This document shows, piece after piece, positions 1-51,917 of a stretch of 64,000 nt of DNA; the stretch's first letter is position 1; every line of letters begins with the position of its first letter. Source of the DNA: Isoetes taiwanensis (taxonomy: Eukaryota > Streptophyta > Lycopodiopsida > Isoetales > Isoetaceae); contig JAJEKV010000001.1 of assembly GCA_021234155.1 (NCBI GenBank), positions 1,115,927 through 1,179,926 of the forward strand, read 5' to 3'. Made by a program: the position numbers and the translations under genes. The notes below the pieces were generated by a model, which worked only from the letters and a program-made list of their open reading frames with translations, was not told the origin of the DNA and did no database searches.

Positions 1-400
1 TTTGTTATAACGTGTTGCAAAGGGATGAAGAGTACCTTAGAAGTGTAAATTTTGTATGAAATTGATAAACTTTTGATAAACTTAAATGTTGTATTAAGTA
101 AAGGGTTAATAATTACCTTGCGTGGATTAAAGTTATGAAATCATAAGTTAATTGGATAATGAAATGATGCACGTAATGTCTTAAACATTACCTTAGAGTA
201 ATTCTAATAATTAAGATGAAGTAAGTATGTAATTATAGATATTGTAAAATTATCTGAGTTTTAAGGTCACGAAGGCTTGCAACACAAAATTTTTGTTGGA
301 ATGTGTCACCTTAAATAATAATTGTATGTGAAAGTGTTAAATTGTGATAAACTAAATGTTGTGATACTTGTGAGGAGACTAATAAATTACCTTGTTTTAA
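1..400. other. AT-rich flank with degenerate tandem motif, no gene
   Basis: No coding signal. The stretch contains imperfect repeats of a motif of roughly 130-250 bp, built from phrases such as 'gcaacacaaa.tttgtt', 'ataaactaaatgttgt' and 'attaccttagagtaat'. The same phrases recur at 25900-26300 and, more weakly, near 25260-25300 and 6920-6950. It is the host sequence into which the CACTAG-ended transposon inserted. Confidence 0.5.
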
Positions 401-2942
401 CACTAGAGTTGTCCGAAGAAACCATTTAGGTGACCGAGAAATGGTCCACCTACATAAAAGCGATATATCTCACAAGATAAATTTTAATTTTTAAAATATA
501 CCACCACTATTTGAGTCTTCATGATTCTTATGACACAGTGAAATTTCATGACCATTGGATACACCTTTATATTGGTATGGTTGTTCAAACTTTGAAGAAT
601 TTGGCAGTTTTCTGACACTCCTAAAGCGCATTCTTCATTTTCTATAAAAGTGTCTAAACCTTGCTAAATATGAAATTAATTGATGTATTATGATAAAACA
701 TATCAATTTGCATGTTTCCATGTTTTGCCACTATCATTTGATTTTTAATTGAGAATTATGCAAGAAACTATTTTGCTTAAAAATGCTGCATGAGTTCAAA
801 ATTATTTCTCTTTATTATTATAAGTTTTGACTTAGTTTTTGTGACAATGAGTCCTTAACTAGGTAACCTATAGTCCAAAAGAATTTTTTATGTTTATATG
901 TTTTATTAGTATCGTTATTAATTTAAGAAATTATTGTCTGAATTCAAAATAAAAATATGGGTTAAAATTGCTTCAATAAATCCATCCATAAATCTCATAA
1001 GGATAGTAAATGATGCATTCTAATCAACTCTATGTGGAATTTACTTTATCAACATAAATATAGTGTAACTAGGGTATAACCATGGGTTATCTGGATCTAA
1101 GCGAGGCTCTAATATAACAGGATGAACACAAAGAAAGGTTCAAAGTGCATTGATTATACCTTTATAAGTCTAAAACTCAACAATAATGTAGGTAGTGATA
1201 GTTTATTGATGAATAGGGGACAATATCACGAAGTTTAGCCATGACTATAAATAAATAGATCAAAAAAGACTTTTCAGGTACTGTTTTTCTAGTTCATCTC
1301 AAAAATTAACTTATTGCACTATAATTCTTCCATAAGCCTTTTAAATGGGCGCATGTATGATAAAAGGGATATTGAGATCCTTGTTGTGGTCTTATTAGGA
1401 AAAAAAATGAAAAACACCTTACTTTCCAATATTATAAAGGAACTAGACAATATGTGGCTGCTCAAAATGTTGTAGTCTAAGTGGGACTTTTTATGATAAG
1501 GCTACCTTTGTTGGCAATATATATCTCAAATTTCATGTTAGGATAATATATTATATACAAGATTTGAATATAAATAAGCATGGACTATGTATGGGTCGAG
1601 GATTAAACCAAATGGATTGAGAAAATTTCTCTATTTATTTGCATTGGCTCTATTCATTTTTGTTCCCCTCAATAATATTATGATTTCTCATAAATGCAAT
1701 AGATAATCTTTGAAAGGTGTAAAGTGGACTTTCTCATACATTCAAAGTAGCCCTTAACTACTTAATTTTTGTGCTCGTATCACCTTTTAGATAGACAATC
1801 CTCCCTAATCAACAAATGTTATCATATATAATGTGATATAAACTATATTCTAAAGAATTGATTAAGATGATGATGTTCTTAACTTTTAAGCGAGAGGTCA
1901 TGTGGACCAATAATTGGCATCGTCATAGTCATGATCCTAGCTTGATCTTCTTTAGGCATATCTTTTCATATTTTTCCTTGGTTCATCTTGCATTGCTATC
2001 TTAACTTTGGGAAGCTTTGGAAATATGGTGTTTGGCGTTCATTTTCAAGGCACAAATCTAGAGATCAAATATGGAAAATATTTGATGATAACTTGGAACT
2101 AATACTAAAAGTTTAGCCCAAACCTAGCAATAGATATTTTTAGTGATAGAGGGATCTCATGAAATATTAATATCCTCAAATTAGGCGAGATCCAATAAGG
2201 TAAAAGAGTTATTGATTTAAAATGAACACAATGGACGATGTGGTCTTATGTCTACGAAAAAACAGCTGATTGATTTATCATGATGGAATGCCTTTTGCTC
2301 TTTTCTTTACTTGTTTTTCATTGGTTTCATATCCATGTAAAGCATTATATATTACTAATATGCTTGATTGCCCAGTTCTTTGCTGAAGTTTTGTAATCTG
2401 TAAATGATAATCCTGCTGATTCACTTTGGAAACCACGATGTCTTGACTTTGTTCACTCTTAATCTAATGCATGATATCAAGTGTTATATGCAACTCCACT
2501 TTTAATATCTTCTCAACTGTCATGTTAGATCAATAGGCAATATCTCATAGCCAAGACATAAGGCAAGGCTATAAAGAATCTATACTGCGTGAAATCTCTA
2601 TCTATGAGAGAGGTGAACACTTTTATCGTCCATAGATTGTATTCACGACTTTGGAAATAGTTCACAAAGCTTTTATAGACAATGGTTGGTTCATTGGAGC
2701 TTTGCCTGAACAGTAAAGGTACAACCACATCCTTGAAAACCACCCCTTTTTGAGGTTTAATTTCCATTCCATTCATGACATTTGCTTTCCACTAAACCAC
2801 CAAATCAAATCTGGTTTTGTTCATGATACCAATAAGAACTTACATAATATTTTACCTAATGAAGTAAGACCAATTGGTAAGACTAAGGAGAATGGAAAAG
2901 ATAAAGTAATGAAACACATGCAATAAAACTTACATAATGTCA

Positions 2943-3095
2943 TCGATAATTAATAGCAATGGTTGAAAATTCCAAATGCCTACCTCAAGTTCATGTAGCA
3001 ATAGTAATTAATAACAATGGTTTAGAAAATTCCAAATGCCTACCTCAAGTTCATGTAGCAATAATGGTAAAATTTTAAACGCCTACCTCAAAGTT
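2943..3095. repeat. Tandem repeat, about 60-bp unit x ~2.5
   Basis: Three successive phrases contain 'aaaattccaaatgcctacct' followed by 'caagttcatgtagcaata'. The third is diverged ('ttttaaacgcctacctcaaa'). It lies inside Helitron B and is repeated at 28850-28990 in the duplicate copy. Confidence 0.8.
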
Positions 3096-3779
3096 CATGC
3101 ATAAAAGAAACATGGAGTTTTCCTTGGGATGGGTTTTCCCCACCTTGTATATGATCTCTTGTTCATTTTCTAAATATTCAAGTGACAATTTACTTAATAA
3201 AAGAAGAGTATATTTTAAAGCCGTCTTCTATATCCATCTTCTATACCCACATAAGTTTCAAGGATCATCCTCAAGGCCATTTCAAATCACAATTATTAAA
3301 TGCTTGTAGTCAAAGCGTAATTCTGAGTCAAGCATGCAACATCTAATAAAATTCACCCCCATATAACAAAGGCAAAATTCAAAGTTTATTTTATTTTCAA
3401 ATGAACTTTGTGTAGATAATAATATCTTGCATGGTTCAAAACTTAGACAAAAAAATATTTGCATAGAAAAAAATACTTGCACAACATAATCCCACACCCA
3501 GCTAGAAGTAACAATTCACATTAAGGCGTCGGGTGCCAATTTTCCATTTTATGATAGCTAGCATAAGATCCATATTAGCTAGCATAAGATGCGCATCTTG
3601 CAAGTTGTTTGGCTCCACGGGCAATAAAACTTTTCTGAGTCTGCATTATTCTATGTAAAATCATCCACAAAAATGATGATGGATATGTTTCTTCATTGGC
3701 CATATTCAAAACCATCATTTTATCTGCAATAAGTTATAAGGCATCAAGTCAATGCATAAATTATGCTATATATCATTAA

Positions 3780-3908
3780 AAAAAGGTAAAACTGATCGAT
3801 GCTTGGTTTAAGCTTTGTAACTTATGAACATTAAAGCTGTAGAAAAAAAGGTAAAACTAATCGATGTGGTTCAAGCTTTTGTAACTTATAAACATTAAAG
3901 CTTTGTAG
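3780..3908. repeat. Tandem repeat, about 60-bp unit x 2
   Basis: Two consecutive units contain 'aaaaaaggtaaaact', then 'aagctttgtaactta' and 'aacattaaagc'. It is inside Helitron B, with its counterpart at 29690-29815. Confidence 0.75.
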
Positions 3909-4483
3909 ATACTTGTTTCCGAAACCATTTCTTTTGCATTGTGTTGTCTTGTTGCTTGAATCTCAGCTTTTGCTCTCCTTTTTTGTCACCACATTTTAGT
4001 CACCACATAGGATATTAAATATGAGGGATTTGGTAGATTCGCTCCTTCCCACTTAAGCGCCCAATTATATCATAGGCTTTGGATACATAATACAACCAGT
4101 TTGAATAATTGAAGCTAAGTATTTTGCTCGATAGGAGGCCGGAGAGGGCAGGAGAATAACGCTCCTCAAGTGTTCCGTGATAGATGAGATTGAGATAAGT
4201 CCAAGATTTACGAAGGCTCTAACTAAGGCATATTTTCTTCTAGATTCATGATTCAAACCATTGTCAAATAAATAGAGATGTCTTTTTGTGCCCTGGTAGA
4301 GTTCCCATTTTGCCGCTCATTGTGACAAAATCAAGTAGAAACCCTATTAAAAGAACAACTCAAACTTGAATATCTTAGCCATAAGCATCAATCACGATCA
4401 AAGGTCGTTCTTGGATCCTGCCAAATGTCCTCTTTTTCCTTCACCGGTCTTTGTCGATTATTATGTCTAGCTAATTGTGTGAC

Positions 4484-5045
4484 TTAAACATTTTTAGCTC
4501 GATTATAACAAAACTTACATGGAAATCTCATTTCCATTGGACGGCTTAGGGCTCCCAAGGATATTTCCCTTGCAATCTTTGGTCTTGAAGCGAGAATACA
4601 ACAAAATTGGAAATAGTGAGACTCTTTTTGAATAGTCGGCGTCTTGAGCAAGCTGCCATCACAAAAATATGTGTCGCATTGTCGCGAGGCGAAAACCACG
4701 GAACAAAGGGTGCTTAGCTCTCTTGAAGAAAAACTCTTTTGTTTTTATTTTAATTGATCAATATGGGCGCCGCGAGGAGCTCACAAAGCCAAAAGCCTAC
4801 CACGGTTTTTGATACGCCATAACTTCGGTACTGGCGGATGGCACCTCAACCCTCGCCTCAGCGTCTTCTCATCAGTTAGAGTGAAAACTTTCTTCCGCGC
4901 CCGATTACAAATCATTGATTTCTTAATAAACCTTTGCCTCATTGCACAAAGCTGTCTCTCACTTTATCTTAATGGAAGCTCCTCATGGTGTGATCAGCTC
5001 TGCATTGCTTTTCCACGGTTGCCAGAGGAGAATTTCCATTAATTG
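4484..5045 (-). pseudogene. Coding-like captured fragment in Helitron B, copy 1
   Basis: On the minus strand, which is also the Helitron sense strand, 4699-4484 can be read as protein-like sequence (TYFCDGSLLKT..., then ISLGALSRPMEMRFPCK). It ends at a good splice donor (CAT/GTAAGTT). The counterpart at 30419-30966 gives a 91-residue open frame rich in charged residues, which is broken here. I do not recognise the family. Gene-fragment capture is well known for plant Helitrons, so a captured multi-exon host fragment is a reasonable inference, but homology was not tested. Confidence 0.35.
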
Positions 5046-5054
5046 TTTGCTCAT

Positions 5055-5262
5055 ATGAAGTTTTGAAATTTTGATTTTCGCGAGTGAATCTCCAGCTTGC
5101 AATTTATGTCAAGACTCTATGCTAGTTGTTCTCTATTACGCAAAGGAAGCTTCTCTCACTTCTAAATAGTAAAAATTTTTGATTTTTGAGAGTGAATCTC
5201 CAACTTGCAATTTATAATGCAAGGCTCTATGCTGATTCTCTATTACGTGAAGGAAGCTTCCA
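5055..5262. repeat. Tandem repeat, about 105-115-bp unit x 2
   Basis: Two units share 'gagtgaatctccarcttgca', 'ctctatgct' and 'aaggaagctt'. The counterpart is at 30995-31195. The two copies differ in phrases such as 'ctattacgcaaagg' versus 'ctattctgcaaagg', an example of the CAG/CTG-word discordance described in the findings. Confidence 0.75.
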
Positions 5263-6859
5263 AATAATGGCGAGGGATGCTACATGAGGAATGAATGGAG
5301 GATAAGAACAAGCGCAAGACCCCACAACATATCTCAAACTATCAAAATGGAAGAAACATGCAAACATAAAACATTAATGCATTAGCGTCAAACTATGAGT
5401 AGCTATGCCATGAATTAATAGATTCTCTAAGCATACATTTATTTAAGTTTTGAGAGCACAATTAAGGCACATGCCATAGATGTCAACAAACAAAAACTTC
5501 TACTTGCCTCGCCATAGAAAATCCATGGGGCCAATATTTTTGCAAATCATGCGGGCCTCTAAGAAAAAAGCTATACCTTATTTGAGCTATAAGCCCTCAT
5601 TTCATCAAAGTAAAGAAATTTTGCTTCCTGTTTTGCTTTGCGGAGACGGAACTTCAAACACCTTGATTTCTAATCTATGATCTACGAATTTACGGACAAT
5701 TATTCTTTCTACATGCACACAAATCGGCATTTGCGAGAAAAAGTTGTAAATAGAGGTTCATAGCCAAAATCTGAATATATAAATATTATGGTGATATGAA
5801 TTGGATATTAAGATTGAGGAGACAATTTCCTAAAGAGGCGCCCTCGCCCGATTTTGATTCTTGATGGCATGGCGGTTATAAAGAATACTTAATTTCTTGA
5901 TGGCATGGAGCTCGAAGTTAATGTTGGTAGCGAGAAGCGGTTTTAAAACCTAGGAAGATTAAGTGATAAGTCCAGCTGCTAAGTTAGTAGCATTATGCAA
6001 TGAAATATCGTGTTTGTTCCACCCTAAATGCAACGTGCAATGCGGTAGAAAGGATTCCGACTATAACTCATATTTTAAGCCCGGAAATTGAAATAAGCGT
6101 GGAAAAATGCTTTACAGTCCAAGATTGGACGATCGACCATCCGATAGCTAAGATCTTATCTCCTGAAGTCTAGATTAGAGCGGGGATGCAACACCCTATA
6201 ACATTATAATATAGGATTTTTCAATGACATACTATTTCAATAAATTTCTTTCAAATATAACAAAATAGACATCAATTAAAGTTGCTTAAAAGTGTTATTA
6301 TAAGTTAAAATTTTGAACTTCAAATTACATTAACAAATATTTTTTATGCATGGACCAATTAGTCAAGTACTTATATACCAAATTTGAGTAAAAAAATCAT
6401 TTTTCATGCAAAAGTTATAGAATTTTAATTGAAAGCGACCTTGGGAACCATTATTGGTCCACGAGAAGGCCGAGAAAAACTGTTTTGACCACAGCATGTT
6501 TGGTAGCTATATCTTCCTTTCTAGACTTGGTTGGAACAAGGTTTTTTTTGTAGTAATCCTTATCTCGTATAGAAAATATCATTATAATGAAAAAAATAAA
6601 AAAAATCCTTTTATTGAGGGCCAGGTTTTACATTATGTAAACATGAAACAAAGCGGACTTGACCCCCTTGATTCACCTAAACATAACTTTCAATTTTGGG
6701 GGTATATGCATTTTTTTAACTATTTTCTGTGCAACATGACTGCCATATATTAACATGTAGAAAGGTTTAACTGAATTTTATGTCATTGATTTTATATGAA
6801 TTTTAAAAACGAACTGTACAAATGAACCATTTATGGTCCATCAAGGGACAACTCTAGTG

Positions 6860-7250
6860 TTAATAGGATTCTGATTTGACAAGTTATTTGATAATGTAAT
6901 GGGCGTAATAATGATTTAAAAATATTACCTTAAGGTAATCTTAATAAATGTGTTAGTATTATGAGTATAGTATATTGTATGCATCGGGTTGATTGCGGAG
7001 GTTAGGGAAGATTCCAAGGTGGGGAGACTCCGCGATCTGCGCGGACGACATCATTTCAAAGTGGGGAGAATGTAGCGTTCCGGTCACGATATCGGTCTCA
7101 AGGCGTATCACCGTACTTGCGAAAATCATCGCATTACCGCCCAGCCAGATCAATGTCAACGATGTCGCGCGTGTACCCAAGCAAAGGTAAGCCCTGGGGG
7201 CAACTTTGCAATGGTGCACACTTAACAATCTTGGCGCGCTTTTAGACCTT
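6860..7250. other. Intervening sequence between TIR element and LTR, no gene
   Basis: Immediately after the transposon the host sequence resumes ('gatttgacaagttatttgat'). It then becomes more GC-rich from about 6980. The equivalent stretch of copy 2 (32790-33330) is longer and only patchily alignable ('gattccaa', 'gtgtacccaagcaa'). Open frames here overlap on both strands and look incidental. No promoter or RNA gene is recognised. Confidence 0.4.
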
Positions 7251-7629
7251 TAACCCATTAAAGGTAGACCAAAGTCATGAAACCCTAAACCTAGCGATAG
7301 CCTACATAAGGCGCAAACCCTAACTTTCCTTTTGCCCTGGACCTTAGGGCTCCGATTCGGCGAGGAGTCAATTCCAACTCCCACGATCGTCCGGTGCGCT
7401 GACTTGTCGGATCGTCCTCCATCCACATTTCAAAGCGAGCGAGACATGGACACCTTTGGATCGAGGAGGAGTGAACCGGGGATCGGTGTTTGGTTCGATC
7501 AAATAGCATAAACCTTACTCTAGCGAATGATGGGTTTAGCCTATTAGATCACCCCTAGCAATAAAGTAGATCCAGAGATTGACCTAACTAAAGAACCCTA
7601 ACTCTATGAGATAGATTAGTTCTTTATTA

Positions 7630-10488
7630 TCTTATATTATAATGTTGTGTAATGGACCAGCCTAATGTGGGCCGGCTTAGATCTATTTGGGCCCGCGTGG
7701 CATCATCGGCACATTCTTCCAAAACTATCTTCTAGGTAAAAGTTATCCAAGAGCATGGCGGCCATGTTGCAAAAACTAAGCTCACTTTGAATCAATCTTC
7801 TACCTTGAGGTTGAAGAGATAGTCCAAGATGGTCGGAAATTGAAGCTTTAGTTCCAGATAGTCAAGATAGGATATATAGGATCATTCGGTGGGTCGGAGG
7901 CGAGCGGGGACTAGGGTTTTGTTGGGCCATTTAGCGTCCACGGAGATAGCCGCAGGGAGGCATTTTGTTTCAGCTTCCTTAGGAGTCTTTGTTTGTATCG
8001 ATTTGGAAGGATGCGGTACCCACATGCCAAGAATGCATGTTTTATTAGGGGTTGAATCTAAACCTTGTGTCTTTGGTTAAGCTTCTCGTGTTGTAGCCGA
8101 GTCCTCTATCGACAATCTTTTGCCAACTTGCGTATCTTATAAAACTTATCACGATTTTTCTATCTTATATACGTTCTCCTATCTGAGGAGGAAAGATAAC
8201 CCGGCACAAAAACACTTGAGGTAGCTTTCTCTGCGCCTTACACTTTGTTACGGCACTTAGAAACCGCAGTGGCAACCCTTCTGACTTTGTGATCTACGAG
8301 GATTTTAGTCTTGAATTGCACTCGCTCAAGCGCGGCCGAGATGATTTGAGCAAGATTTGGCTGAGAAAAATACTCCGTTCTTGCATCTCAACCCGCGAGT
8401 AATTTGTGTTTACCAAAGACCCTTTGTTGGATGATGATACCATCGGCCTTGAAAATTTCTTTTTTGCCTCTGGAAGGATGGAAGAGGCAGTCTTGGTCCT
8501 CCCGAAGAGAAAACTCAAGAAGAGCAGATTTAGTTCGGACTGAGGAGCATCTGGGGTGGAGATAAAATGTTGGGTTGCCCACGAGATGATGTTGTGGGCT
8601 TGTAGATATTAGTCACGAGGGAAGAGCTTGAAATTGCGGTGTGTTGTGGCTTTAAAAGATATGAGCGTGATGCAAATAGGGTAGGGTTGATCACGGAAGT
8701 GCGTGCCAAAAGGAGGTCAAGGAAGATGGCATTTCATGAGAATAATCTGGCGGTTACACTAGCGGTTCTTTGGGCCAATCTTTGCTTAAGATGCGGCTAA
8801 AAAATTTAGGATCACGGGGACCACGGATGCTCGTTTGCTGCTATCTGGCACAAGTTAAGATAGCTTGAAAATGGCAATACGGTAGAACCGGGCGCCATTC
8901 AAGCTATCTTAAGGTTATCTCGAGGATGGTTCCTGCATTACTGCATGAATGAAGAAATAAACCTATGTTGCTACATGAAAGAATTACGCCTTTTCTTTGG
9001 AGTAAAACATGAAAAGTATGGATTAACGCTTCCACAATGCGGTGCCAAGCTGTTTCCCGTGGTTGTGCTAGAAGCCATTTAATGTGGATGGGATTCAAAA
9101 TCACTCGAATAGATTCATGTCGGCGGATATTGAGTCGTAACACTATTTGACAAATAAAGGTATGTTGTGGGAAAGGTCTATTTGTAAGAAGGCGATTTGA
9201 ACTCAATGCATGGAAAGCATATGGCTATGACTCTTTACATTAATTATTAAATTTGAAAGATAAAAACGCCCCTTTTTGCTATATGTAGGACAATAATGGT
9301 AGTCAATCAACATTTTGATCCACATACCTTCTTCTTGCGATGTGTTTTGAACAAAAAAATTCTATGTGAAAATCGACGTTCTGTATCTTTAATGTGGCCA
9401 CTCATCGCTCCTTCAGCCTGCTATTTCTTCCTTAGGTTTATCTTAACCAATTATTATCAGCACATAATGTTGCAAACTGAAACTGGTAAATAACGTATAT
9501 GTGCTTGGTTCGATTTTGAGGTTATGACTCTTTGAGCCTCCTATCTTCTCTTGGATTATAAGGTCTGTGATTATACTATACTCGGTATAATAGGGTTATC
9601 TGCATAGGCATCCTCTTTCTAGCTAATTGTTAGAGAGAAAGCATGCCCATGCGGACGGAAATTATTATTTGCGAGGGATTCTTGGGTGTTTCCATGCAAT
9701 CGGTTTGCATCTTTCGTGAAGCGAAGAATTATGCATATCAGGCCAAAGGCTTTCCATCTAAGTGCTATGGTGGTGCAAATCGGGCCAAGGCTTCCCATCT
9801 AAGTGCTATGGTGGTGCAAATGGAACAAAGTCTTTCCATCTGTGTGTTTGTTTGCCAATAAATTCCTCTTATGTATTCTACTTTATCATCAATGGAGGAG
9901 GTATTTGGGCAACCCGGTGAATCAAAGGTTTGTATGGCCCTTAATTTCATATCTCACATTTATCGAGAGCCTCATGGAGCAACAAACAATATGGCGCAAT
10001 TTCATATCTCACATTTATATCGAGGCCTCATGGGCACAACAAACAAACATCGATTGCATTAGCCTCATGGGCACAACAAACAAAAGATCGATTGCATTAG
10101 CGGGAGGTAAGATGAAACAAAAGCGCTTCTCCTTTTCTGACAATGCGAGACTTAATTCTTGGGTTGCTTCAACTTGCAACCACAATTCACAGTTATGTTG
10201 TATATTGGCATACAAGCAATAAGATCATAATAAGATCATATTGATATGGCCCGATTAATGTAGTTGGAATGATCTTTAACATTTTTTAAAATTGCTTATA
10301 GCAATGCATAAAAATGAAGTGATGATATTGGAAAGTTCATTCAATGCTATAAAATGGATAGTTCTATATCCAAGGTGAAAAACATTGAGCATTAGAAAAA
10401 CATTGTCTTTTTAGCATTGTCCAAGCTTTTTTAACAATCTTTGTCTACAATCACATGTAAAGCCCACCAGCGATGGGCAATTTACTAG
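7630..10488 (+). mobile_element. Non-autonomous Helitron A, copy 1 (2859 bp)
   Basis: It starts TCTTATATTATAATGTTGTG after host A (7629). It ends with the hairpin GCCCACCAGCGATGGGC (10462-10478), a 6-nt spacer AATTTA and CTAG (10485-10488), followed by host T. These are the textbook Helitron signatures: 5' TC, a 3' hairpin shortly before CTRR, insertion between A and T, and no target-site duplication. The Helitron-free LTR at 18864/18865 joins the two flanks exactly, base for base. No RepHel open frame is present. The cargo has coding-like scraps near 8300-8850 and several short tandem repeats (9745-10090). Confidence 0.9.
9740..10095. repeat. Short tandem repeats within Helitron A
   Basis: A unit of about 43 bp containing 'ccatctaagtgctatggtgg' is repeated about 2.5 times (9745-9842). 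Further on, 'atttcatatctcacatttat' occurs twice and 'cctcatgggcacaacaaaca' twice (9945-10090). Equivalent arrays sit at 36150-36500. Such minisatellites are common inside plant Helitrons. Confidence 0.75.
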
Positions 10489-11400
10489 TTTATTATGTTG
10501 ATATGATGGGTGGATGGATTACGTGAACTCATTGTATGGGAAGGGGGTAGAGACTTAAAGCTTAGTAGATGATGCTCCTAGTTAGTCCCTCTTAGTGCAT
10601 TACTAGATTTATTTTATTGTACAAGAACCCCACACAGTTGTGGGTGAAGGGGCGAGGCCCGGCTTAGAATGAGGTTAGGTGTTAGACCCTTGGCCGATCC
10701 CTCACGGTGTGTAAGGCCTAGGGATCGAGTGACTAGGTGCAATGGCTTGCCAGCGGAGTGTGGGTAAGGCATGGGCTCGACACCGTGGGGTGGAGTTCAC
10801 CTTCCGATGGGTTAAAAGTCGAATAAGGCGGTGGCCCTCTAGTCACCTGGGTCAGCATGTAAGATCTCCCGGAGGGGTGAGCCCTATGCGCCCCATCGGG
10901 ACTGGGAGATGTAACCAGGGAATAGCCCCTTTGGCTATGCCGCGGTCAGGAGTCCCAACACTTTTCAACCTACTGCGCAAAGTGTGCGCGAGGGGGGAGG
11001 CGGATGGGTGGACAACCCAATGCCATGTTCTTATGCGGCCCAATCCATTGTCATGATTAAATGCGCAATGAACTCACGGGAGGCCCAAGCTTGTCGGTCT
11101 ATCCACGTGTGCGAGCCTTGGGTAGGAACTTCCTTTGTATTGTCTTTGATCTTTGTCTATCTGCGGATATGTGGTGAGCCATCCTTGAGATGGTCATGAT
11201 GTGCTTTGATGTATATGTACTTACATATGTTTACGCTTCCGCGACTAGGTAGGCCAGGAGGCGGGGTAAAATGCCCGCCTTCATTCTTCCCCTTTGGATT
11301 GCGATGATGTGTGGAGGGCCTTGTATCGCGTGGGCTGGTATAGGGGATGAACTCTGTTTGTATCACGATGGGTGCAAAGTATATGAGTAGGGGCGTCACA

Positions 11401-12345
11401 TCACCTATTGAGGGAGTCATATCTACTACCATGGGGAGTTTACTCCCACCTTCTACCATTTTCAAAATATTGTATATTTGAGAAAATATTCTATTTTTTC
11501 TTGAGATGCTTACCACGAGCATCTAGAACATGCCTGAGTCACCCCAGTGTGAATATGCCCAAACCAAAGGGGTTTTAGGGGAATTCTAATTTAAAGGTTA
11601 AGATGTAATGGTTTTGTGTTAAATAATGTTAGCGTAGTTATCGTTGGTGTAGTTATATTTAAAAAATAAAATTAGACCCTTTGGGTCCTAACAAAAAGCA
11701 AACATGGTAAGCTTTAAAAATTTAGTCATAACATCATTTAAAACAATAGTTCTTCATTGTTTGATGAAGAATTCATGTACATGCATGCAATGGCAAGTGA
11801 CCTTTCTCCGTCCTTCACATATATCATTATAAAACATAATAAGTATACATTTAGAATGAATAATGGTATTATTATTATATTCCAATAAAAAAAACACAAG
11901 CTTAGGGGGTTCACATGCAGCGATTAATTGGGAGAGGGGCCTGTTATACCCTTTGCATATTGGTGATGATGTGATGGTGGGCATATACATGGCCAGTGAA
12001 GGCGCGATGGTGCATGTGAATCCGGCCTTAACAGCGAATGAAGTGGAGATGTTTTATCTTTGAGGATTTCCACATGAAAGTCATCTCACTTATTGGATCT
12101 GATGAATAAAAATGTGAAGAGAGGTTGCAAGACAATACTTGATATTTTAGGAAGTCAATGCTTGGAGAAGAAGATTTAATATTTGTGCGCTCCCTATGCG
12201 AAGGACATCATGATATCAACATTTCATACAAATAACTTCAAAGATATGAAATCACTATTTCATACGAGGATAACTAACGAGATAAATGCTTAGGCATACC
12301 TAGGTCTGTCGGTTGGGTGCCCATGGGTTGGTGTTGAACTATGTC
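11401..12345. other. Tail of duplication copy 1, no gene recognised
   Basis: A/T-rich sequence shared with 37824-38785. It begins 'tcacctattgagg', where a primer binding site would be expected if this were a 5' LTR, and none is present. It includes the dispersed repeat at 11536-11700. An open frame at 11863-12063 is short, is not preserved in copy 2, and I do not regard it as a gene. Confidence 0.5.
11536..11700 (+). repeat. Dispersed repeat family R1 (GTCACCCC...AAACCAAAGGGG)
   Basis: The sequence gagtcacccc-(gtgtgaatatg)-cccaaaccaaaggggttt, followed by a T/G-rich tail with 'ggtttgtgtta' and 'gaccctttgggtcc', recurs at 37960-38120 (same strand). It also recurs in reverse complement at 15790-15975 and 57931-58190. 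The order of conserved blocks is the same in all four. It may be the end of an unrecognised element. No coding is seen. Confidence 0.6.
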
Positions 12346-12995
12346 ATCAATTAGAATAGAGCAATATTATCTTGTAGGGTATGACTTGAGTAGTCTAAGG
12401 CCTATAAATACGTATAATCAACAAAAGAAACAAACAATTTTAGTAGGGATATATATTTTTATGAAATAGTATAGACAAAAGGACAAGATAAAAGCGGTCC
12501 AAAATCGTGAAAGGAAGTGAACAAAACCAAAGTCCTTACGATTTTGAGACCTAAGATCATAATGATAATGGAGATGGAAAGTCTGAAAATAAGAGATGTG
12601 AAAGTCGATCGCCCGAGAAGGAGCATAACCCTAAAAATTTAGAAACAAACAAAAAAAAAAAGTTACCGCAAATACGAGGAGGAAAAGAACTTAAATGGTT
12701 AAAGTGAAAAGAAGAGAAGGAGGACAAAAGCTCAAGACTTCAAGGTGAGATGATGAAGATTGGCCCCAAAAGGTGTTTGATAGAAGAAGAAAATGGGAAA
12801 AGTCTAAAATTAAAAGCGTGAACATGAAATAAACAACATTCTTGCTATATTAGGGCGACATTCCATTGTCATATGAAGGCAGGATCAAAAAAAAGTGAAT
12901 TCAAAAATTAGAAAGAAGCAATGCAAGAGCAAATGAGTTCATTTGAAAAAACACATATGAATTAGTAAAAATATCGAGGAGGGCAAAAATATTGT
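12346..12995. other. A-rich intergenic sequence, no gene recognised
   Basis: Purine-rich, with many frames closed by stops. Part may be decayed copia sequence between integrase and reverse transcriptase, because the next recognisable block is a copia reverse transcriptase in the same orientation. No individual motif supports this. Confidence 0.3.
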
Positions 12996-16560: not shown

Positions 16561-18586
16561 GCTAGAAGATTACTAGATAAAATGTGGTTTGATTCAAAGA
16601 GATACCCGCAGTTTTTTGGTATATAACGATCTCGATTGCATTGCTCAACATAAAATTACGTCTTCTTCAAAGAACCAAGCACATTGAGTCATATGTACAT
16701 TTTATTGGAGGAATGGTGGCCAAAAAGTGTGTTTCTCTCTAATCGTTAGCACCGGGGAAGAGATTGTAGACATACTTTCAAAAGCAACATTCTTGGAAAA
16801 GTTTATGCTATTTAAACACAACTGGGAGTTCTGGATCTAAGTCAAGGCAAAGCTTAGGGGAAAAGCAGGATATCACGAATATCATATGAAAGGGGAAGAT
16901 GCAATATTTCATGTGCACATTAAATGTTATTTGATTTAATAGTCCATGGTTCATATTCAACCTGTATGAACTTGTTTTTTAAATGTTGAAGATTCAAAGG
17001 GTCAAATGACCTAGTGACCGAGATAAAAATTTAAATTTAGAAGCATGCTAAATCAAAATTTGTTGTGTTGTCCGGATTCTCCAAACCTACAACTTGATTT
17101 CGAAATTGATATATTACTCGGTGTCAAAGGAAATGGCGGGATGAGAATGATGTAAGCCAAGGCAAAATGTTTCAATGCTTTCCAAAATTAATAGTGCAAG
17201 TTTTGAATCCATTATGAACAATATTTCTATGGTCTAAAAGCTTGTTATAGAGAGAGTTTGAATGGTTTATACCACAAGTGCTTTGCAACCATTGAACCTT
17301 GTCTTTTCATAAGTTTACAACAACCTCAACCTCATAGAATGGTTATTTAATGAGGGTGATAAAATGAGTTTTTTGGAAGATCTGAAAATTTTTTGGCATC
17401 AAAGAAGGCCAAAAGATTTTAATCCAGAATGACTTGAGAGAATATTAAAAAGTTCTCCACCACCAGAAAAAAATAGAAGCTATAGCCATTAGATATTTAG
17501 TTACCCAAAATATACCCCAACATGCCAAAGCTCACTAACGAATTGTCCCTTAATAGGGTCAATTCGAAAGATATATAATTGCGACTCAAATGGGCAAACG
17601 ATCTATTAAGATTTCCACACCTTTTCAACCATAAACTAGAAATGCTACAATTTTTGTTATGTGACAGTCTCAGTTGCATTGCTCTTACAAAAACTCCAGA
17701 CGTCTTCGAAGAACTAAGCAAATTGAGTCATATGTACATTTTATTAGAGACATGGTGGCCAAGAAGTACATTTTGGTCTAATACATTAGCACATAGGAGC
17801 GGACTCTAGACATACTTACAAAAGCAGCATTCTTGAAAAGTTTACGTTATTCAAATGCAAGCCCGAAAGTCCGCGGTTCTAGATCAAGGCAAAGCTTAGA
17901 GAAAAACAAACATCTGAATATGATATGAAAGGAAAAGATGAAGTAGTTCATGTGCACATTAGATGTTATTTGATTTAGTAGTTAGGATTCAAAGCGTCGA
18001 ATGACCTAGTGATAGATAAAAATTTAAATCTAAAACATGCTAAATCAGAGCATTTGTATTATCTCAATTCTCAGACCCTACAACTTGATTTTGAAATTGA
18101 TATATTGCTCCATGTGGAGGAAATGACAAGATCTTGAGAATGATGTAAGACAAGACAAAATGTTTTAATGCTTTTCAAAATGAATAGTGCAAGTTTTGAA
18201 TCCATTATGAACAATATTCTGTGGTCTAAAGTTTGTTGTAGAGAGAGTTTGAATGGTGATACCACAAATGCCTTGCAAACATTGAACCTTGTCTTTTCAT
18301 AACTTTACAATAAGCCTCAACCTCCCTCAAATTAGGTAGAATGCTTTTTGTAATGAGGGTGATAAAATGAGTTTTTTCGGCAGATCTGAAATTTTTTTGG
18401 CATCGGAGGCCAAAGACCTTGAATCCACAATCATTTGAGAAGATACTAGAAGGTTCTCCATCATCAAAGAAAGAACTAGAAGCTATAGCGGTTAGATGTT
18501 TAGATATATCAAAATATACTCCAAGATGCCAAAACTTACTATGAATTACCCCTTGGCGGGGTCAATTCTAAAGATACCCACAATTC
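16561..18586 (+). repeat. Two tandem ~1-kb copies of a copia 3' end
   Basis: Units 16561-17585 and 17586-18586 align along their length. Each has a copia C-terminal coding remnant ('tgcattgct', 'gaactaagcaaattgagtca', 'tagacatacttacaaaagca'), then 'gggaaaagatg..catgtgcacattag', then a noncoding tail ending '(cc)ttrrygggtcaattc'. The translated remnant corresponds to the copia phrase DNQSAIAL...HIDVRYHFIRD...VADIFTKAL. Unit 1 continues from the RNase H fragment at 15997, so the second unit is a tandem duplication of the element's end. Both units are non-functional. Confidence 0.7.
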
Positions 18587-19794
18587 GGCTTTGAGGAGTC
18601 AATTCCAACTCCACGATCTGATAAGTGCGCCCGACTTGTCGAGATCGTCCTCTAAACCGCATTTTGAAGCGAAGCGAGACATGGACACCTTTGGATCGAG
18701 AGGAGTGAACCGGGGATCAGGTATTTGGTCGATCAAATAGCATAAACCTTACTCCGACCTTGAATCGGTGGGTTTAGCCTATTAGATCACCTAGCAGCCA
18801 AGTAGATCGAGAGATTGACCTAACTAAAGAACCTAACTCTATGAGATAGATTAGTTCTTTATTATTTATTATGTTGATATGATGGGCGGATGGATTACGT
18901 GAACTCATTGTATGGGAAGGGGGTAGAGACTTAAAAGCTTAGTAGATGATGCTCCTAGTTAGTCCCTCTTAGTGCATTACTAGATTTAGGCACATGTGTA
19001 CAAGAACCCCACACGGTTGTGTGGCGAAGGGGCAGGCCCAGCTTAGAATGAGGTTAAATGTTCGACCCTTGGCCGTCCCTGCGGTGTGTAAAGGCCTATG
19101 GGGATGAGTGACTAGGTCTAATGGCTTGCCAGCGAGTGTGGGTAAGGCATGGGCTCGACACATCGTGGGGTGGAGTTCACCTTTCGATGGGTTAAGTCGA
19201 GAATAAAGGCGGTGGCCCTCTAGTCACCTGGAGTCCGACATGTAGATCTCTGCGGAGGGAGTGATCCCTACACGCCCCATCGGAATTTGGGAGATGTAAC
19301 CGAGGGAATAGCCCCCTTTGGCTATGCACCGTGAGCCGGATCGAGTCCCAACACTTTTCAACCTACTACGCAAAGTGTGCACGGGGAGGCGGATGGAGTG
19401 GACAACCCAATGCCATGTTCTTATGCGGCCCAATCCATTGTCATGATTAAATGCGCAATGAACTCGAAGGCCCAAGCTTGTCGGTCTATCCACATATATG
19501 CGAGCCTTGGGTAGGAACTTCCTTTGTATTGTCTTTGATCTTTGTCTATGCAGATATGTGGTGAGCCATCCTTGAGATGGTCATGATGTGCTTTGATGTA
19601 TATGTACTTACATATGTTTACGCTTCAGCGACTAGGTAGGCCACGAGGAGGCGGGGGTAAATGACACCTTCATTCTTCCCCTTTGGATTTGCGGTGATGT
19701 GTGGAGAGCCTTGTATCGGCGTGGGCTGGTATAGGGGATGAACTCTGTTTGTATATCGATGAGTGCACCGTATATGAGTAGGGGATGTCCGCGG
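18587..19794 (+). mobile_element. 5' LTR (copy 3), 5'-truncated, Helitron-free
   Basis: It begins at 'attcggctttgaggagtcaa', joined abruptly to the copia tail, and follows copies 1 and 2 to '(tat)gagtaggggatgtccgc'. At 18864/18865 it reads ttctttatta|tttattatg. Copies 1 and 2 carry Helitron A at exactly that point, so this is the unoccupied state. A primer-binding-site match follows directly, which marks this LTR as the 5' LTR of an element running rightwards. Confidence 0.75.
18864..18865. other. Empty insertion site of Helitron A
   Basis: The junction A|T between 'ttctttatta' and 'tttattatgttgatatgatg' equals the left flank plus right flank of Helitron A in both duplicated LTR copies, with no lost or gained base. 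Confidence 0.9.
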
Positions 19795-25915: not shown

Positions 25916-28257
25916 TTTGTTATAACGTGTTGCAAGGGATGAAGAGTACCTTAGAAGTGTAAATTTTGTATGAAATTGATAAACTTTGATAAACTTAAAT
26001 GTTGTATTAAGTAAGGTTAATAATTACCTTGCGTGGATTAAGTTATGAAATCATAAGTTAATTGGATAATGAAATAGTACAGTAATGTCTTAAACATTAC
26101 CTTAGAGTAATTCTAATAATTAAGATAGTAAGTATGTAATTATAGATATTGTAAAATTAATACAGGATTTTAAGGTGCGAAGACTTGCAACACAAATTTT
26201 GTTGGAATGTGTCACCTTAAATAATAATTGTATATGAAAGTGTTAAATTGTGATAAACTAAATGTTGTGATAACGGAGACTAATAAGTACCTTGTTTTAA
26301 CACTAGAGTTGTCCCGAAGACCATTTCTGGTGACCAGAAATGGTCCACCATACCCCCTGCCACTTAAACCGATATATCTCACAAGATAAATTTTAATTTT
26401 AAAATATACCACCACTATTTGAGTCTTCACTTGATTCTTAACGACCTGTGAGAATTTCATGACCATTGGATACACCTTTATATTGGTATGATTGTTCAAA
26501 CTTTGAAGAATTTGGCAGTTTTTACAGCACTCTAAAACTGCATTCTTCAATTTTCTAGCATAAAAGTGTCTAAACCTTGCTAAATATGAAATTAATTGAT
26601 GTATTATGATAAAACATATCAATTTGCATGTTTCCATGTTTTGCCACTATCATTTGATTTTAATTGAAGTCGCCAAACCCTATTTTGCTTAAAAATCTTT
26701 GCATGAGGTTCAAAATTATTTCTCTCTTATTATTATAAGTTTTGACTTAGTTTTTGTGACAATGAGTCCTTAACTAGGTAACCTATAGTCCAAAAAATTT
26801 TTTTATGTTTATATGTTTTATTAGTATCGTTATTAATTTAAGAAATTATTTATGAGAATTCAAAATAAAAATATGGGTTAAAGTGCTTCAATAAATCCCA
26901 TCCATAAGTCTCATAAGGATAGTAAATGATGCATTCTAATCAACTCTATGTAGGAATTTACTTTATCAACATAAATATAGTGTAACTAGGGTATAACCAT
27001 GCATTATCTAGATCTAAACGAGCTCTAATATAACAGGATGAACACAAAGAAAGGTTCCAAAGTGCATTGATTATACCTTTATAGGTCTAAAACTCAACAA
27101 TAATGTAGGTAGTGATAGTTATTGATGAATAGAGGACAATATCACGAAGTTTAGCCATGACTATAAATAAATAGATCAAAAGACTTTCCGTACCTGTTTT
27201 TCTAGTTCATCTCAAAAATTAACTTATTGCACTATAATTCTTCCATAAGCCTTTTAAATGGCGCAATGTATGATAAAAAGGGATATTGAGATCCTTGTTG
27301 TGGTCTTATTAGGAAAAAAAAATGAAGAAACCTGCTTACTTTCCAATATTATAAAGTTAGACAATGTGTGGCTGCTCCAAAATGTTGTAGTCTAAGTAGG
27401 ACTTTTATGATAGGCTACCTTTGTTGGCAATATATATCTCAAATTTCATGTTAGGATAATATATTATATACAAGATTTGAATATAAATAAGCATGGACTA
27501 TGTATAGGTCCAGGATTAAACCAAATGGATTGAGAAAATTTCTCTATTTATTTGCATTGGCTCTATTCATTTTGTTCCCTACAATAATATTATGATTTCT
27601 CATCGTCTGTAAGATAATCTTTGAAAGGTGTAAGTGGACTTTCTCATACATTCAAAGTAGCCCTTAACTACTTAATTTTTGTGCTCCGATATCACCTTTT
27701 AGATAGACAATCCTCCCTAATCAACAAATGTTATCATATATAATGTGATATAAACTATATTCTAAAGAATTGATTAAGATGATGATGTTCTTAACTTTTA
27801 ACTGAGAGGTCATGTGGACCAATAATTGGCATCGTCATAGCAGTCTAGCTTGATCTTCTTTAGGCATATCTTTTCATATTTTTCCTTGGTTCATCTTGCA
27901 TTGCTATCTTAACTTTGGGAAGCTTTGAAATATGGTGTTTGACGTTCATTTTCAAGGCACAAATCTAGAGATCAAATATGGAAAATATTTGATGATAACT
28001 TGGAACTAATACTAAAAGTTTTAGCCCAAACCTAGCAATAGATATTTTTTAGTGATAGAGGATCTCATGAAATATTAATATCCTCAAACCCGCTTTGAGA
28101 TCAATAAGGTAAAAAGTTATTGATTTAAAATGAACACATGGACCCGATAATGGTCTTATGTCTGAAACCTTTATTGATTTATCATGATCGTGCCTTTTGC
28201 TCTTTTTCTTTACTTGTTTTTTCATTGGTTTCATATCCATGTAAGCATTATATATTA

Positions 28258-31200
28258 CTAGTAACAGTGCCCAGCGTTGCTGGCAGAAGTTTGTAATCTG
28301 TAAATGATAATCCTGCAGATTCACTTTGGAAACACGATGTCTTGACTTTGTTCACTCTTAATCTAATGCATGATATCAAGTGTTATATGCAACTCCCACT
28401 TTTTAATATCTTCTCACTGTCATGTTAGATCAATAGGCAATATCTCATAGCCAAGACATAAGGCAAGGCTATAAGAAATCTATACACGTAGAAATCTCTA
28501 TCTATGAGAAGGTGAACACTTTATCGTCCCATGAATTGTATTCACGACTTTGGAAATAGTTCACAAAGCTTTTTGCATAGACAATGGTTGGTTCATTGAG
28601 CTTTGCCTAGACAATGGTACAACCACATCCTTGAAAACCACCCCTTTTTGAGGTTTAATTTCATTACATTCATGACATTTGCTTTCCACTAAACCACCAA
28701 ATCAAATCTGGTTTGTTCATGATACCAATAAGAACTTACATAATATTTTACCTTAATGATAAGACCGGTGGTAAGACTAAGGAGAATGGAAAGATAAGTA
28801 ATGAAACACATGCAATAAAACTTACATAATGTCATCAGTAATTAATAGCAATGGTTGAAAATTCCAAATGCCTACCTCAAGTTCATGTAGCAATAGTAAT
28901 TAATAACAATGGTTGAAAATTCCAAATGCCTACCTCAAGTTCATGTAGCAATAGTAGAAAATTTTAAACGCCTACCTCAAGTTCATGCATAAAGAAACAT
29001 GGAGTTTTCCCTTGGGATGGAGTTTTCCCCACCTTTGTATATGATCTCTTGTTCATTTTCTAAATATTCAAGTGACAATTTACTTAATAAAAAGAAGAGT
29101 ATATTTTAAAGCACGTCTTCTATATCCGCATCTTCTATACCCACATCGTTTCCAAGGATCATCCTCCAAGGCCATTTCCAAATACAGGTATTACGTAACT
29201 GTAGTCAAACAGCAATTGCAGTCAAACAGCAACATCTAACTAAAATTCACCATATAACAAAGGCAAAATTCAAGCTGTTATTTTATTTTCAAATGAACTT
29301 TGTGTAGATAATAATAATACTGTACATGGTTCAAAACTTAGACAAAAAAAAAATATTTGCACTTAGAAAAAAAATACTTGCACAACATAATCACACCAGC
29401 TAGAAGTAACAATTCACATTCGCACTGAGGCGTCAGTGCCAATTTTTTCCATTTTATGATAGCTAGCATAAGATCCATATTAGCTAGCATAAGATCTGCA
29501 TCTTGCAAGTTGTTTGGCTCACAGGCAATAAAACTTTCTAGTCTGCATTATTCTATGGCAAATCATCCACCAAAAATGATGATGGATATGTTTCTTCATT
29601 GGCCATATTCCAAAACCATACGTACATCTCTGCAATAGTTATAAGGCATCAAGTCAATGCATAAATTATGCTATATATCATTAAAAAAAAAGGTAAAACT
29701 GATCAGTAACAGTTGCAAGCTTTGTAACTTATGAACATTAAAGCCTGTAGAAAAAAAGGTAAAACTAATCAGTGACAGTTCCAAGCTTTGTAACTTATAA
29801 ACATTAAAGCCTGTAGATACTTGTTTCCAGAAACACGCATTTCTTTTGCATTGTGTTGTCTTGTTGCTTGAATCTCCAGCTTTTGCTCTCCTTTTTGTCA
29901 CCACATTTTTAGTCACCACATAGGATATTAAATATGAGGATTTCGTAGATTAACTGGATCACTTAACCGCTTAATTATATCATAGGCTTTCAGATACATA
30001 ATACAACAGTTTGAATAATTCGAAGCTAAGTATTTTGCTCCTGATAGGAGACGGAGAAGACGGAGAAGATGCTGCTCCTCCAAGTGTTCACGTGATAGAT
30101 GAGATTGCAGATAAGTCCAAGATTTACACGGCTCTAACTAAGGCATATTTTCTTCTAGATTCATGATTCAAACCATTGTCAAATAAATAGAGATGTCTTT
30201 TTGTGCCCTGAGGTAAGTTCCCATTTGCCAGACTGCTCATGACAAAATCAAGTAGAAACCCTATTAAAGACAACTCAAACTTGAATATCTTAGCCATAAG
30301 CATCAATCTGATCAAGGTCGTTCTTGGATCCCTGCAAATGTCCTCTTTTCCTTTACGGTGCTGTCCCAGTGATATGTCTAGCTAATTGTGTGACTTAAAC
30401 ATTTTAGCTCGATTATAACCAAAACTTACATGGAAATCTCAGCTCAGATTGGACGCTTAGGAGCTCCCAAGGATATTTCCCTTGCAATGCTGGTCTTCAA
30501 GCTCGAATACAACAAAATTGGAAATAGTGAGACTCTTTTGAATAGTCGCGTCTTGAGCAAGCTGCCATCACAAAAATATGTATGCGGTAATACTGAGAGG
30601 CGAAAACCCTGGAACAAAGGGTGCTTAGCTCTACTGAAGAAAAAACTCTTTTGTTTTTTTATTTTAATTGATCAATGTGGGCCGCCCGGCACAGAGCTCA
30701 CAAAGCCCAAAAGCCTACCACGGTTTTTGATCTGCCATAACTCAGAGCTGCAAGCAGATGACGCCACCTCAACCCTCTGCCTCAACGTCTTCTCATCAGT
30801 TAGAGTAACTTTTTCTTCACGCCAGTACAAATCATTCAGTTTCTTAATAAGCACTGCCTCATTGCACAAACTGTCTCTCACTTGTATCTTAATGGAAAGC
30901 TCCTCATCGTGTGATCCCAGCTCTGCATTGCTTTTCACAGTGCCCAAGCGGAGGAATTTCCATTAATTGTTTGCTCATATGAGCGTTTTGAGAATTTTGA
31001 TTTTGCGAGTGAATCTCCAACTTGCAATTTATAATGCAAGACTCTATGCTAGTTGTTCTCTATTCTGCAAAGGAAGCTTATCTCACTTCTAAATAGTAAG
31101 AATTTTGATTTTTGAGAGTGAATCTCCAACTTGCAATTTATAATGCAAGGCTCTATGCTAGTTCTCTATTCTGTGAAGGAAGCTTCCAAATAATGGCAGG

Positions 31201-32141
31201 ATGCTACATGGGAATGAATGGAGGATAAGAACAACTGCAAGACCCCACAACATATCTCCAAACTATCAAAATGGAAGAAACATGCAAACATAAAACATTA
31301 ATGCATTAGCGTCAAACTATGAGTAGCTATGCCATGAATTAATAGATTCTCTAAGCATACATTTATTTCGTTTGAGAGCACAATTAAGAGCACATGCCAT
31401 AGATGTCAACAAACAAAAACTTCTTTCTGCCTCTGCCATAGAAAATCACGCAGGGCCAATATTTTGCAAATCATGCAGGCCTCTAAGAAAAAAAGCTATG
31501 CCGCTGAAGCTATAGCGACTCATTTCATCAAAGTAAAGGTTGCTTCTGTTGTTTTGCGGGGACGGACTTCAAACACGCTTGATTTCTAATCTGCGGATCT
31601 CACAAATTACGGACAATTATTCTTTCTACATGCACACAAATCAGCATTTGCACAGAAAAAGTTGTAAATAGAAGGTTCATAGCCAAAATCTAGATATATA
31701 AATATTATGACTGATATGAATTGGATATTAAGATTGAGGAGACAATTTCCTAAAAGAGGCGCCTACGCCAGATTTTGATTTACTGATGGCATGGCCAGGT
31801 TATAAAGAATACTTAATTTACTGATGGCATGGAGCTCGAAGTTAATGTTGGTAGCAGAGCAGTTTTAAAACCTAGGAAGATTGCAGCAGAGTAAGTCCAC
31901 TGCTAAGTTAGTAGCATTATGCAATGAAATATCTGTGTTTGTTCCACCTAAATGCAACGTGCAATGCAGCCGAAAGGATTCCCGACTATAACTCTGTATT
32001 TTAAGCCCAGAAATTGAAATAAACGTGGAAAAATGCTTACCTGGTCAAGATTGGAACGATCTGACCATCCGATAGCTAGATCTTATCTCCACCGTCTAGA
32101 TTAGGGCGGGATGCAACACCCTATAACATTATAATATAGGA
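28258..32141 (-). mobile_element. Non-autonomous Helitron B, copy 2 (3884 bp)
   Basis: On the minus strand the element starts TCCTATATTATAATGTTATA at 32141, preceded by A. It ends with the hairpin GCCAGCAACGCTGGGC (28284-28269), a spacer and CTAG at 28261-28258, followed by T. The related transposon at 53-55.6 kb has the unoccupied junction near 55036/55037 ('...aatgtga' then 'ttttttggagg'), which supports the limits. Its ends resemble those of Helitrons A and C. There is no Rep or helicase coding. Confidence 0.88.
30419..30966 (-). pseudogene. Coding-like captured fragment in Helitron B, copy 2
   Basis: An open frame of 91 codons (30947-30672) reads from GTVKSNAELGSHDEE through KIQVRDSLCNEAVLIKKLN to ELWQIKNRG. 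It continues upstream in frame to at least EIPPL. After stops, the downstream part reads like a second piece ending at a GTAAGT donor. Its orientation matches the Helitron. I do not recognise the protein. The fragment could be host exons captured by the element, or an element-specific frame. Confidence 0.35.
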
Positions 32142-32793
32142 TTTTTTCAATGACATACTATTTCAATAAATTTCTTTCAAATATAACAAAATAGACATCA
32201 ATTAAAAGTTGCTTAAAAGTGTTATTATAAGTTAAAGCTGAAGCTTCAAATTACAGCCCAACAAATATTTTTTATGCATGGACCAATTAGTCAAGTACTT
32301 ATATACCAAATTTGAAGTAAAAAATCATTTTCATGCAAAAGTTATAGAATTTTAATTGAAATGACCTTACGGGAACCATTATTGGTCCTAAGAGAATGAA
32401 ACTTTTTTGACCACTGTCATGTTTGGTGGCTATATCTTCCTTTCTAGACTTCGGATTGGAACAAGGTTTTTTGTGTATTAATCCTTATCTCGTATAGAAA
32501 AATATCATTATAATGAAAAAAAATAAAAAAAATCCTTTTATTGAGACAGTTTTACATTATGTAAACATGAAGCAAACTGGACTTGACCCCCCTTGATTCA
32601 TCTAAACATAACTTTCAATTTTGGGGGTATATGCATTTTTAACTATTTTTTCCCCTGTGCAACATGACTGCCATATATTAACATGTAGAAAGGGTTTAAG
32701 CTTGAATTTTATGTCATTGATTTTATATGAATTTTAAAACGAACTGTACAAATGAACCATTTATGGTCCATCAAGGGACAACTCTAGTGTTAA

Positions 32794-33330
32794 TAGAAGT
32801 TACGATTTGACAAGTTATTTGATAATGTAATGGCATAATAATGATTTAATAAAATCCATTCTAGATTAAGCTATATAATATCTAGATCAAATATATAATA
32901 TCGTTATATCAAACAAAGTATAGCAATGCTAGGCAATTTTTCAATTATCAAAATTGGACAATGGGCGTGTAAAAACCCTAGAAGATTCCAATGTTGGGGC
33001 CTCATTCTAAGAACTTAAATTATTCTTGAATACTTGAAACAACATCAGTGTTGCCCATATGGGGCGTCAACTATGATGTAAAATAGTCGTTAGAAGGGAT
33101 TATACGGTTTAAATTCAAGGAAGTTATAGTGGGCGTGTATGTATGTACAATTTTAGTAGCTTATTGCCCTAGGACTAGATGGTTAGTAAAAGATCTTGAT
33201 TTGAGTGCAAAGGCGCCCACCTTATATTGCCAACATATGCCCGGCGTGTACCCAAGCAAGGCCTTCGAATTCCATGTGTGGGGGGCCACTTGCAATATAT
33301 CCATCAATGCCTTAGAAACATTTTTCACAA
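32794..33330. other. Sequence between TIR element and LTR, no gene
   Basis: The host flank after the transposon. It is AT-rich and only partly alignable to 6864-7250. Open frames at 33129-33353 and 33161-33346 overlap on opposite strands and are not credible genes. Confidence 0.4.

Positions 33331-51885: not shown

Positions 51886-51917
<32 letters not shown>

Follow-up and report, generated by a model that had tools for sequence, protein, structure and literature searches.

Helitron Copies and Neighboring Features in the Window

The window, a stretch of 64,000 nucleotides from Isoetes taiwanensis (C907:1115927-1179926, within an assembly of 1.66 Gb), contains five copies of three Helitrons, i.e., two of Helitron A on the forward strand (A1, 7630-10488, 2859 bp; A2, 33915-36900), two of Helitron B on the reverse strand (B1, 28258-32141, 3884 bp; B2, 2355-6216), and one of Helitron C on the reverse strand (58735-62328, 3594 bp). 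The window also harbors an exostosin GT47 frame (52123-53070; PF03016, 5.3e-40), beside which lies a 12-bp tandem repeat of about 20 units (51764-52022). The stretch above this frame (53003-54760) has relatives at 67-70% in duplicated blocks of the window (457-1262 and 26297-27988), and the frame together with these relatives is probably a tandem gene cluster.

As the preliminary description of this DNA had proposed, the five Helitron copies share their 5' pattern: all open with TCYTATATTATAATGTT right after an A, on the forward strand at 7630-7646 (A1) and, with one mismatch, at 33915-33931 (A2), and on the reverse strand at 32125-32141 (B1), 6200-6216 (B2), and 62312-62328 (C). With up to three mismatches allowed, this pattern has eight matches in the window, five of which are the copies of A, B, and C; 100 shuffles gave 1.5 matches on average and 6 at most. 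The shared 3' pattern claimed for the same copies exists in four of the five, where CTAG stands before a T and a GC-rich palindrome lies upstream. It has been lost in B2, which lacks an intact hairpin, terminates in TTAG instead of CTAG, and shows 54-62% identity in its last 30 bp to the other ends compared. The terminator of C (58735-58762, reverse strand) consists of GCCCAGC-AAC-GCTGGGC, with a stem of 7 bp and a loop of 3 nt, a spacer, and CTAG, and that of A1 (10462-10488, forward strand) of GCCCA-N7-TGGGC, a spacer, and CTAG. Folding of the hairpin is clear for C (-8.4 kcal/mol, z -3.9) and A (z -3.4) and weak for B1 (z -0.8), whose stem has one mismatch.

The 3' end of A had been listed under one pattern with those of B and C, but it is of a different subtype: relatives of A possess GCCCACC-AAC-GGTGGGC (type II), of which A1 has a changed form, whereas B1 and C are of the GCCCAGC-AAC-GCTGGGC kind (type I), intact in C. 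Ends were compared over 30 bp against 2000 random 30-mers (mean 46, maximum 71), the usual line for one family being 80% identity in the last 30 bp. The last 30 bp of A are 70-80% like type I ends (74-80% for A1 and A2 versus C and L015), hence at or below this line, and 90-93% like the type II end of the element at locus L029; those of C are 96% identical to L015, which B1 matches at 87% and C at 83%. At the other side, the first 30 bp of A1 are 100% identical to L018 and 93% to L015, which is an element with RepHel coding. Helitron A combines a type II 3' end with a 5' end of the L018/L015 kind.

Segmental Duplication and the Empty Site

Similarity between A1 and A2 and between B1 and B2 crosses the element boundaries because the surrounding blocks are duplicated. 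Block 1-6925, which contains B, is a segmental duplicate of 25916-32855 (90%), and block 7575-12351, which contains A, is a duplicate of 33857-38784 in two blastn pieces (85 and 89%). A1 and A2 are 86.2% identical inside the element and 88.6-88.8% in the right flank; for B1 and B2 the values are 91.2% inside and 92.1 and 93.4% in the flanks. On the left side of A, blastn similarity of the two copies ends about 55 bp from the element, and 200-280 bp there align at 68%. This self-comparison of the window contradicts a reading of the five copies as separate insertions: with both pairs being segmental duplicates, the window records three insertion events, and five independent ones are ruled out by the duplicated blocks and by the like divergence inside and outside the elements.

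An empty site for A lies between bases 18864 and 18865, within a paralog of the A1 flanks (18583-19789) that matches A1 on both sides and in which the flanks are joined exactly, reading TTATTA|TTTATTAT. The site is thus as described, although it falls one base short of the claimed precision for the ends: a T opens the element as well as the right flank, and the empty site alone permits a shift by one base. Over the right flank that all three have in common, the empty paralog shows 91.3% identity to A1 and 89.7% to A2, so that next to the value for A1 and A2 it is not an outlier, and the order of duplication and insertion is therefore not simple. Gene conversion would account for these identities.

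Genome-Wide Occurrence and Pairing of the Ends

The 5' 17-mer occurs in 4179 exact copies in the genome, compared with one copy of its reversed control, and 3691 of them directly follow an A. The type I 3' end of C (GCCCAGCAACGCTGGGC-N7-CTAG) was found 4931 times and the type II 3' end (GCCCACCAACGGTGGGC-N6-CTAG) 300 times, with a control count of 0 in both cases. What distinguishes the two stems is a paired change, AGC/GCT versus ACC/GGT, that leaves the length of 7 bp intact, and this argues for the hairpin as the conserved feature.

Pairing was studied for 98 of 100 listed 5' places (two on C50 were omitted) using the listed type I and type II ends on the same contigs. Within 4 kb, an exact 3' end in the same orientation lies downstream in 31 cases and upstream in 3, and the other strand contributes 1 and 5; when the distance is extended to 8 kb, the counts become 36 downstream, 4 upstream, and 4 and 9 on the other strand. 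The ends therefore co-occur genome-wide and in a directional manner, as would be expected if those seen in the window delimit mobile elements. In a detailed sample of 20 stretches of 10 kb, which hold the first 21 listed 5' ends, all 21 ends follow an A and 16 have a 3' hairpin in the same orientation downstream. Fifteen of these 16 paired elements end in CTAG before a T, the remaining one (L017) in CTAT before a G, so that the A and T flanks proposed for the copies are common at both sides. No matching 3' end was encountered downstream in L009, L011, L021, and L023 (9.5 kb) or for the second 5' end of L014 (3 kb). Pseudo 3' hairpins followed by CTAT precede the true hairpin by 92-108 bp in L015, L019, L028, and L030.

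In the same-body pairs L013/L014 and L024/L025, 95 and 94% alike, respectively, similarity stops at the proposed ends, and the flanks are unrelated. Among the flanks of the 16 of 20 stretches with both ends, the matches obtained were self-matches within L013, L014, and L022, plus one at 71% that links L019 and L022 on their left sides and is out of register with the ends. The element in L013 is bordered on its two sides by stretches of 400 bp that match each other at 87% in direct orientation, and insertion there perhaps took place at the joint of a tandem repeat.

The placement of A1/A2 and B1/B2 inside duplicated blocks might suggest that the proposed ends are chance motifs at block edges and do not belong to mobile elements. 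This reading can practically be dismissed: it is refuted by thousands of ends with A and T flanks, by their directional pairing, by near-zero controls, and by the exact empty site.

RepHel Coding

None of the window's Helitrons encodes RepHel, in agreement with the preliminary description: the RepHel pieces of L015 are without a match in the window (tblastn, E 0.01), and ten of the longer open frames in these elements gave no Pfam match above cut-off (best sub-threshold E 0.015), these scans thereby showing no sign of a captured host gene either. The autonomous relative with the same ends that had been anticipated was found in a damaged state. L015 is an element of 7652 bp with the family's ends and three open stretches, in which the domains Helitron_like_N (PF14214, 4.9e-14) and PIF1 (PF05970, 1.9e-19) were detected, i.e., both the Rep (HUH/Y2) and the PIF1-type helicase parts of RepHel, but its reading frame is broken, since the open stretches are in different frames with stops between them. 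The third open stretch matches no Pfam family at 0.01. A second RepHel element, the left unit of L038 (C23:224092), has the family's 3' end. Matches to PF14214 number at least 150 in the genome (150 of 1813 candidates scored), all those listed being above cut-off and several lying in frames reported with more than 1000 codons, and are absent from all 14 control genomes.

Unrelated, Repeated, and Possibly Exchanged Interiors

The bodies of A, B, and C have no mutual blastn match of at least 60 bp at 1e-5, which bears out the different interiors assigned to them. Comparison of 16 sampled elements and the five window copies extends this picture: at the 5' side, the shared portion commonly measures 55-130 bp, in one case 181 bp, and at the 3' side 64-141 bp. 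Most interiors are unrelated, the exceptions listed being a pyrimidine-rich group (L012, L013, L014, L016, and L019), L024/L025, the two window pairs, and stretches of 63-72 bp common to L027 and some other elements. As often only these ends are shared, interiors can be replaced, and the proposal that bodies are swapped with ends kept is supported by the comparison. Outside its own pair, A has no match of at least 60 bp, ends included, with any other element compared.

The body of A was found at six places, all within 0.46 Mb (C907:761116-1216749), when the best 40 of 331 candidates were considered, and no copy outside this neighborhood was among them. Two of the six are whole, and four occur as two halves with much of the middle 260 bp missing. 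Since its body is confined in this way, A is best read as a single insertion whose copies arose by local duplication. Within A, about 430 bp (window 9185-9616; query 1466-1897) occur at 78-83% identity in at least 34 other genomic places and are probably another, nested repeat. For the body of C, the best 40 of 204 candidates include long, fragmented matches on the contigs C889, C1022, and C1031; many partial matches comprise query positions 22-140 and 205-904 near the 3' side and, alone, 3029-3396 near the 5' side. Such a mosaic is what module exchange would leave.

Members of one subgroup (L012, L013, L014, L016, L019, L039, and L040) are characterized by a body of about 1.7-2.2 kb that is rich in pyrimidines and repeated internally; in the five that were measured, one strand contains long open frames. 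The element in L026 (501-4480) carries an aspartyl protease fragment (TAXi_C, 7e-8), probably a captured piece of a host gene, and a RepHel remnant is situated outside this element on the other strand (5590-6730).

Assignment to Canonical Helitrons

Helentrons (Helitron2) insert between two T residues and possess asymmetric terminal inverted repeats. This class is rejected for A, B, and C on the grounds of their insertion between A and T. The features of canonical Helitrons are present instead, i.e., 5' TC and 3' CTRR, here CTAG (four of five window copies, 15 of 16 paired sampled elements), a GC-rich hairpin that precedes the 3' end by about 10-12 nt (A and C; weak in B1, none in B2), insertion at A|T with no duplication of the target, ends without terminal inverted repeats as judged by eye, and RepHel coding in L015, though in a broken frame. 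With a probability of roughly 0.93, we consider A, B, and C to be non-autonomous canonical Helitrons of one very large group, which would depend on RepHel in trans and whose interiors are replaceable. As the sole RepHel copy found with both ends is broken, we infer their mobilization in trans by related RepHel elements. A RepHel enzyme from such elements would nick at A|TC, peel off one strand, and halt at the hairpin plus CTAG, and the copy would be inserted at a new A|T.

Head-to-Tail Junctions

Tandem Helitron arrays at plant centromeres have reportedly been described by Xiong and colleagues. In the present genome, exact CTAG|TCYTATATTATAATGTT sequences, in which the 3' end of one element is joined head to tail to the 5' end of another (CTAG|TC), occur 194 times, with a control count of 0. 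An even distribution of newcomers over A|T sites would yield about 0.1 such pairs, an expectation derived from the counts 3691 and 4931 and the AT dinucleotide frequency in the window (0.098), in which a preference for AT-rich DNA or for Helitron-rich regions is left out of account.

Some of the 194 junctions belong to homotypic arrays. In L029, units of about 2.95 kb that are 92-93% alike are connected by three exact junctions, and such an exact array may be read as a footprint, though no more than that, of rolling-circle transposition through circles. It also agrees with the idea that the junctions were produced by rolling-circle concatenation of a single element, which seems improbable as a general account: among nine junctions viewed in long context, at hand-picked and thus non-random loci, six (from five loci) join different members or unrelated bodies. 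The two units of L036 are identical at 38 of 38 5' bases and 35 of 36 3' positions and have unrelated bodies; in L038, a RepHel element is joined to a pyrimidine-repeat element; unlike units are also joined in L037 and at the two junctions of L039; and L040 unites two pyrimidine-repeat members that are roughly 65-70% alike. In L037 and L038, the 3' end of the right unit lies beyond the fetched stretch. These heterotypic junctions refute concatemers as the sole source.

The first base of a resident's TC makes up an A|T site together with the A that precedes it, and insertion there gives a CTAG|TC junction. A second class of junctions, CTAG|TATTATAATGTT, was encountered 67 times (control 1), and here the resident 5' end is split at TCTTA|TATT. 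For 9 of the 40 split junctions on contigs up to C1025, an exact left remnant was located upstream on the same strand at a distance of 1.9-7.9 kb, the comparison involving the first 100 entries listed for left remnants (198 in total) and for head-to-tail junctions (194 in total). L040 falls among the other 31 because the end of its newcomer is inexact. The opposite orientation is rare: no exact head-to-head case was detected at the boundary and two were detected at the split site, counts that rest on exact motifs of different length, whereas up to about 44 and about 15, respectively, would be expected if orientation were free (an estimate in which 9/40 serves as the proportion of newcomers whose end is exact). 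Loss of palindromes from genomes or assemblies could lower the counts for the opposite orientation.

TCTTA directly before a complete 5' end (TCTTA|TCTTATATTATAATGTT) occurs in 198 copies (control 0), more than there are split ends, with examples in L018, L020, and L023; in 8 of 100 listed places it is followed by an exact CTAG|TC junction within 8 kb.

An identical CTAG|TC junction would arise if the newcomer inserted at G|T just after the 3' end of a resident, and according to the accessible part of PMC2267711, maize lines with the left element of such a pair alone exist, whereas none of the lines tested had the right element alone. We consider insertion at G|T unlikely, as the 67 split-end junctions sit inside the resident 5' end (L040 is a case in point), where insertion at a 3' end cannot place them, and as such a site would be an exception among 5' ends that follow A in 3691 of 4179 instances. 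Somewhat less doubtful is homologous recombination of a circular Helitron intermediate with the shared 5' or 3' end of a resident, which accounts for exact junctions, single orientation, and unrelated bodies; Helitron circles have been reported (PMC4778049, PMC5876387, and PMC13286980, as far as their available text goes). The shared ends are short for such recombination, however, and it cannot produce the 67 CTAG|TATTATAATGTT junctions, which makes it the main rival for the 194 junctions and not for the 67.

Because CTAG|TATTATAATGTT splits a resident 5' end, only landing on that end explains it, and the 67 split ends together with the rarity of opposite orientations therefore favor strand-specific landing on resident 5' ends. 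There is about an even chance that resident 5' ends are preferred, strand-specific landing sites at A|TC and TCTTA|TATT, with unrelated elements stacked head to tail in a single orientation, in a hundreds-fold excess over the uniform random expectation. The enzyme would recognize and open A|TC at the resident 5' end, and a newcomer joined at the resident nick would yield an exact CTAG|TC head-to-tail pair with unrelated bodies. Such stacking could set up paired ends from which interiors can be exchanged.

Comparison With Known Helitrons

Classification of Helitrons by 30-bp ends is in use (PMC4683698, PMC13286980, in their accessible parts). Helitrons that have their ends in common and differ in their interiors have already been published, as have tandem arrays, insertions close to another Helitron, and pseudo 3' ends without CTAG, 28.7% of maize HelAs having multiple termini (accessible parts of PMC3288121, PMC4683698, PMC2267711, and PMC5876387). 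As far as can be seen from portions of PMC3288121 and PMC2267711, maize HelA resembles the present group in its TC and CTAG ends, hairpin, conserved termini, differing interiors with gene fragments, and pseudo 3' ends lacking CTAG, and it provides one heterotypic CTAG|TC pair, for which the landing side could not be settled (PMC2267711). It is another family, however, and the 194 CTAG|TC and 67 split-5'-end junctions described here come from one genome. Rice Mothra, in the available text of PMC4683698, is likewise a high-copy non-autonomous group that is tied by its ends to a coding element and has tandem-repeat bodies; its putative mother element is without RepHel, whereas a RepHel element, although broken, is present here. 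Wheat Xuan-Feng comprises non-autonomous and RepHel members grouped by 30-bp ends, with AT insertion and a hairpin 11 nt from the 3' end, as in the present case; in contrast to the family described here, which is known from sequence alone, its mobilization has been observed (PMC13286980, accessible part). Helraiser/Helibat1 shares TC...CTAG, the 3' hairpin terminator, the A|T target, and a head-to-tail circle junction (PMC4778049 and PMC5876387, in part); it is a bat element and is likened by features, not by sequence.

The literal end sequences of the family have no match in the literature searched. Repeated landing at resident 5' ends was not described in any paper found, most subscription papers lying outside the literature searched. 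The family itself is ordinary, consisting of real canonical Helitrons that extend the knowledge from maize, rice, and wheat. Its scale is useful, as the 194 and 67 junctions constitute a data set on where a Helitron lands upon another Helitron. If true, strand-specific targeting of 5' ends would show what the enzyme recognizes in its target and would offer a route for the exchange of bodies.
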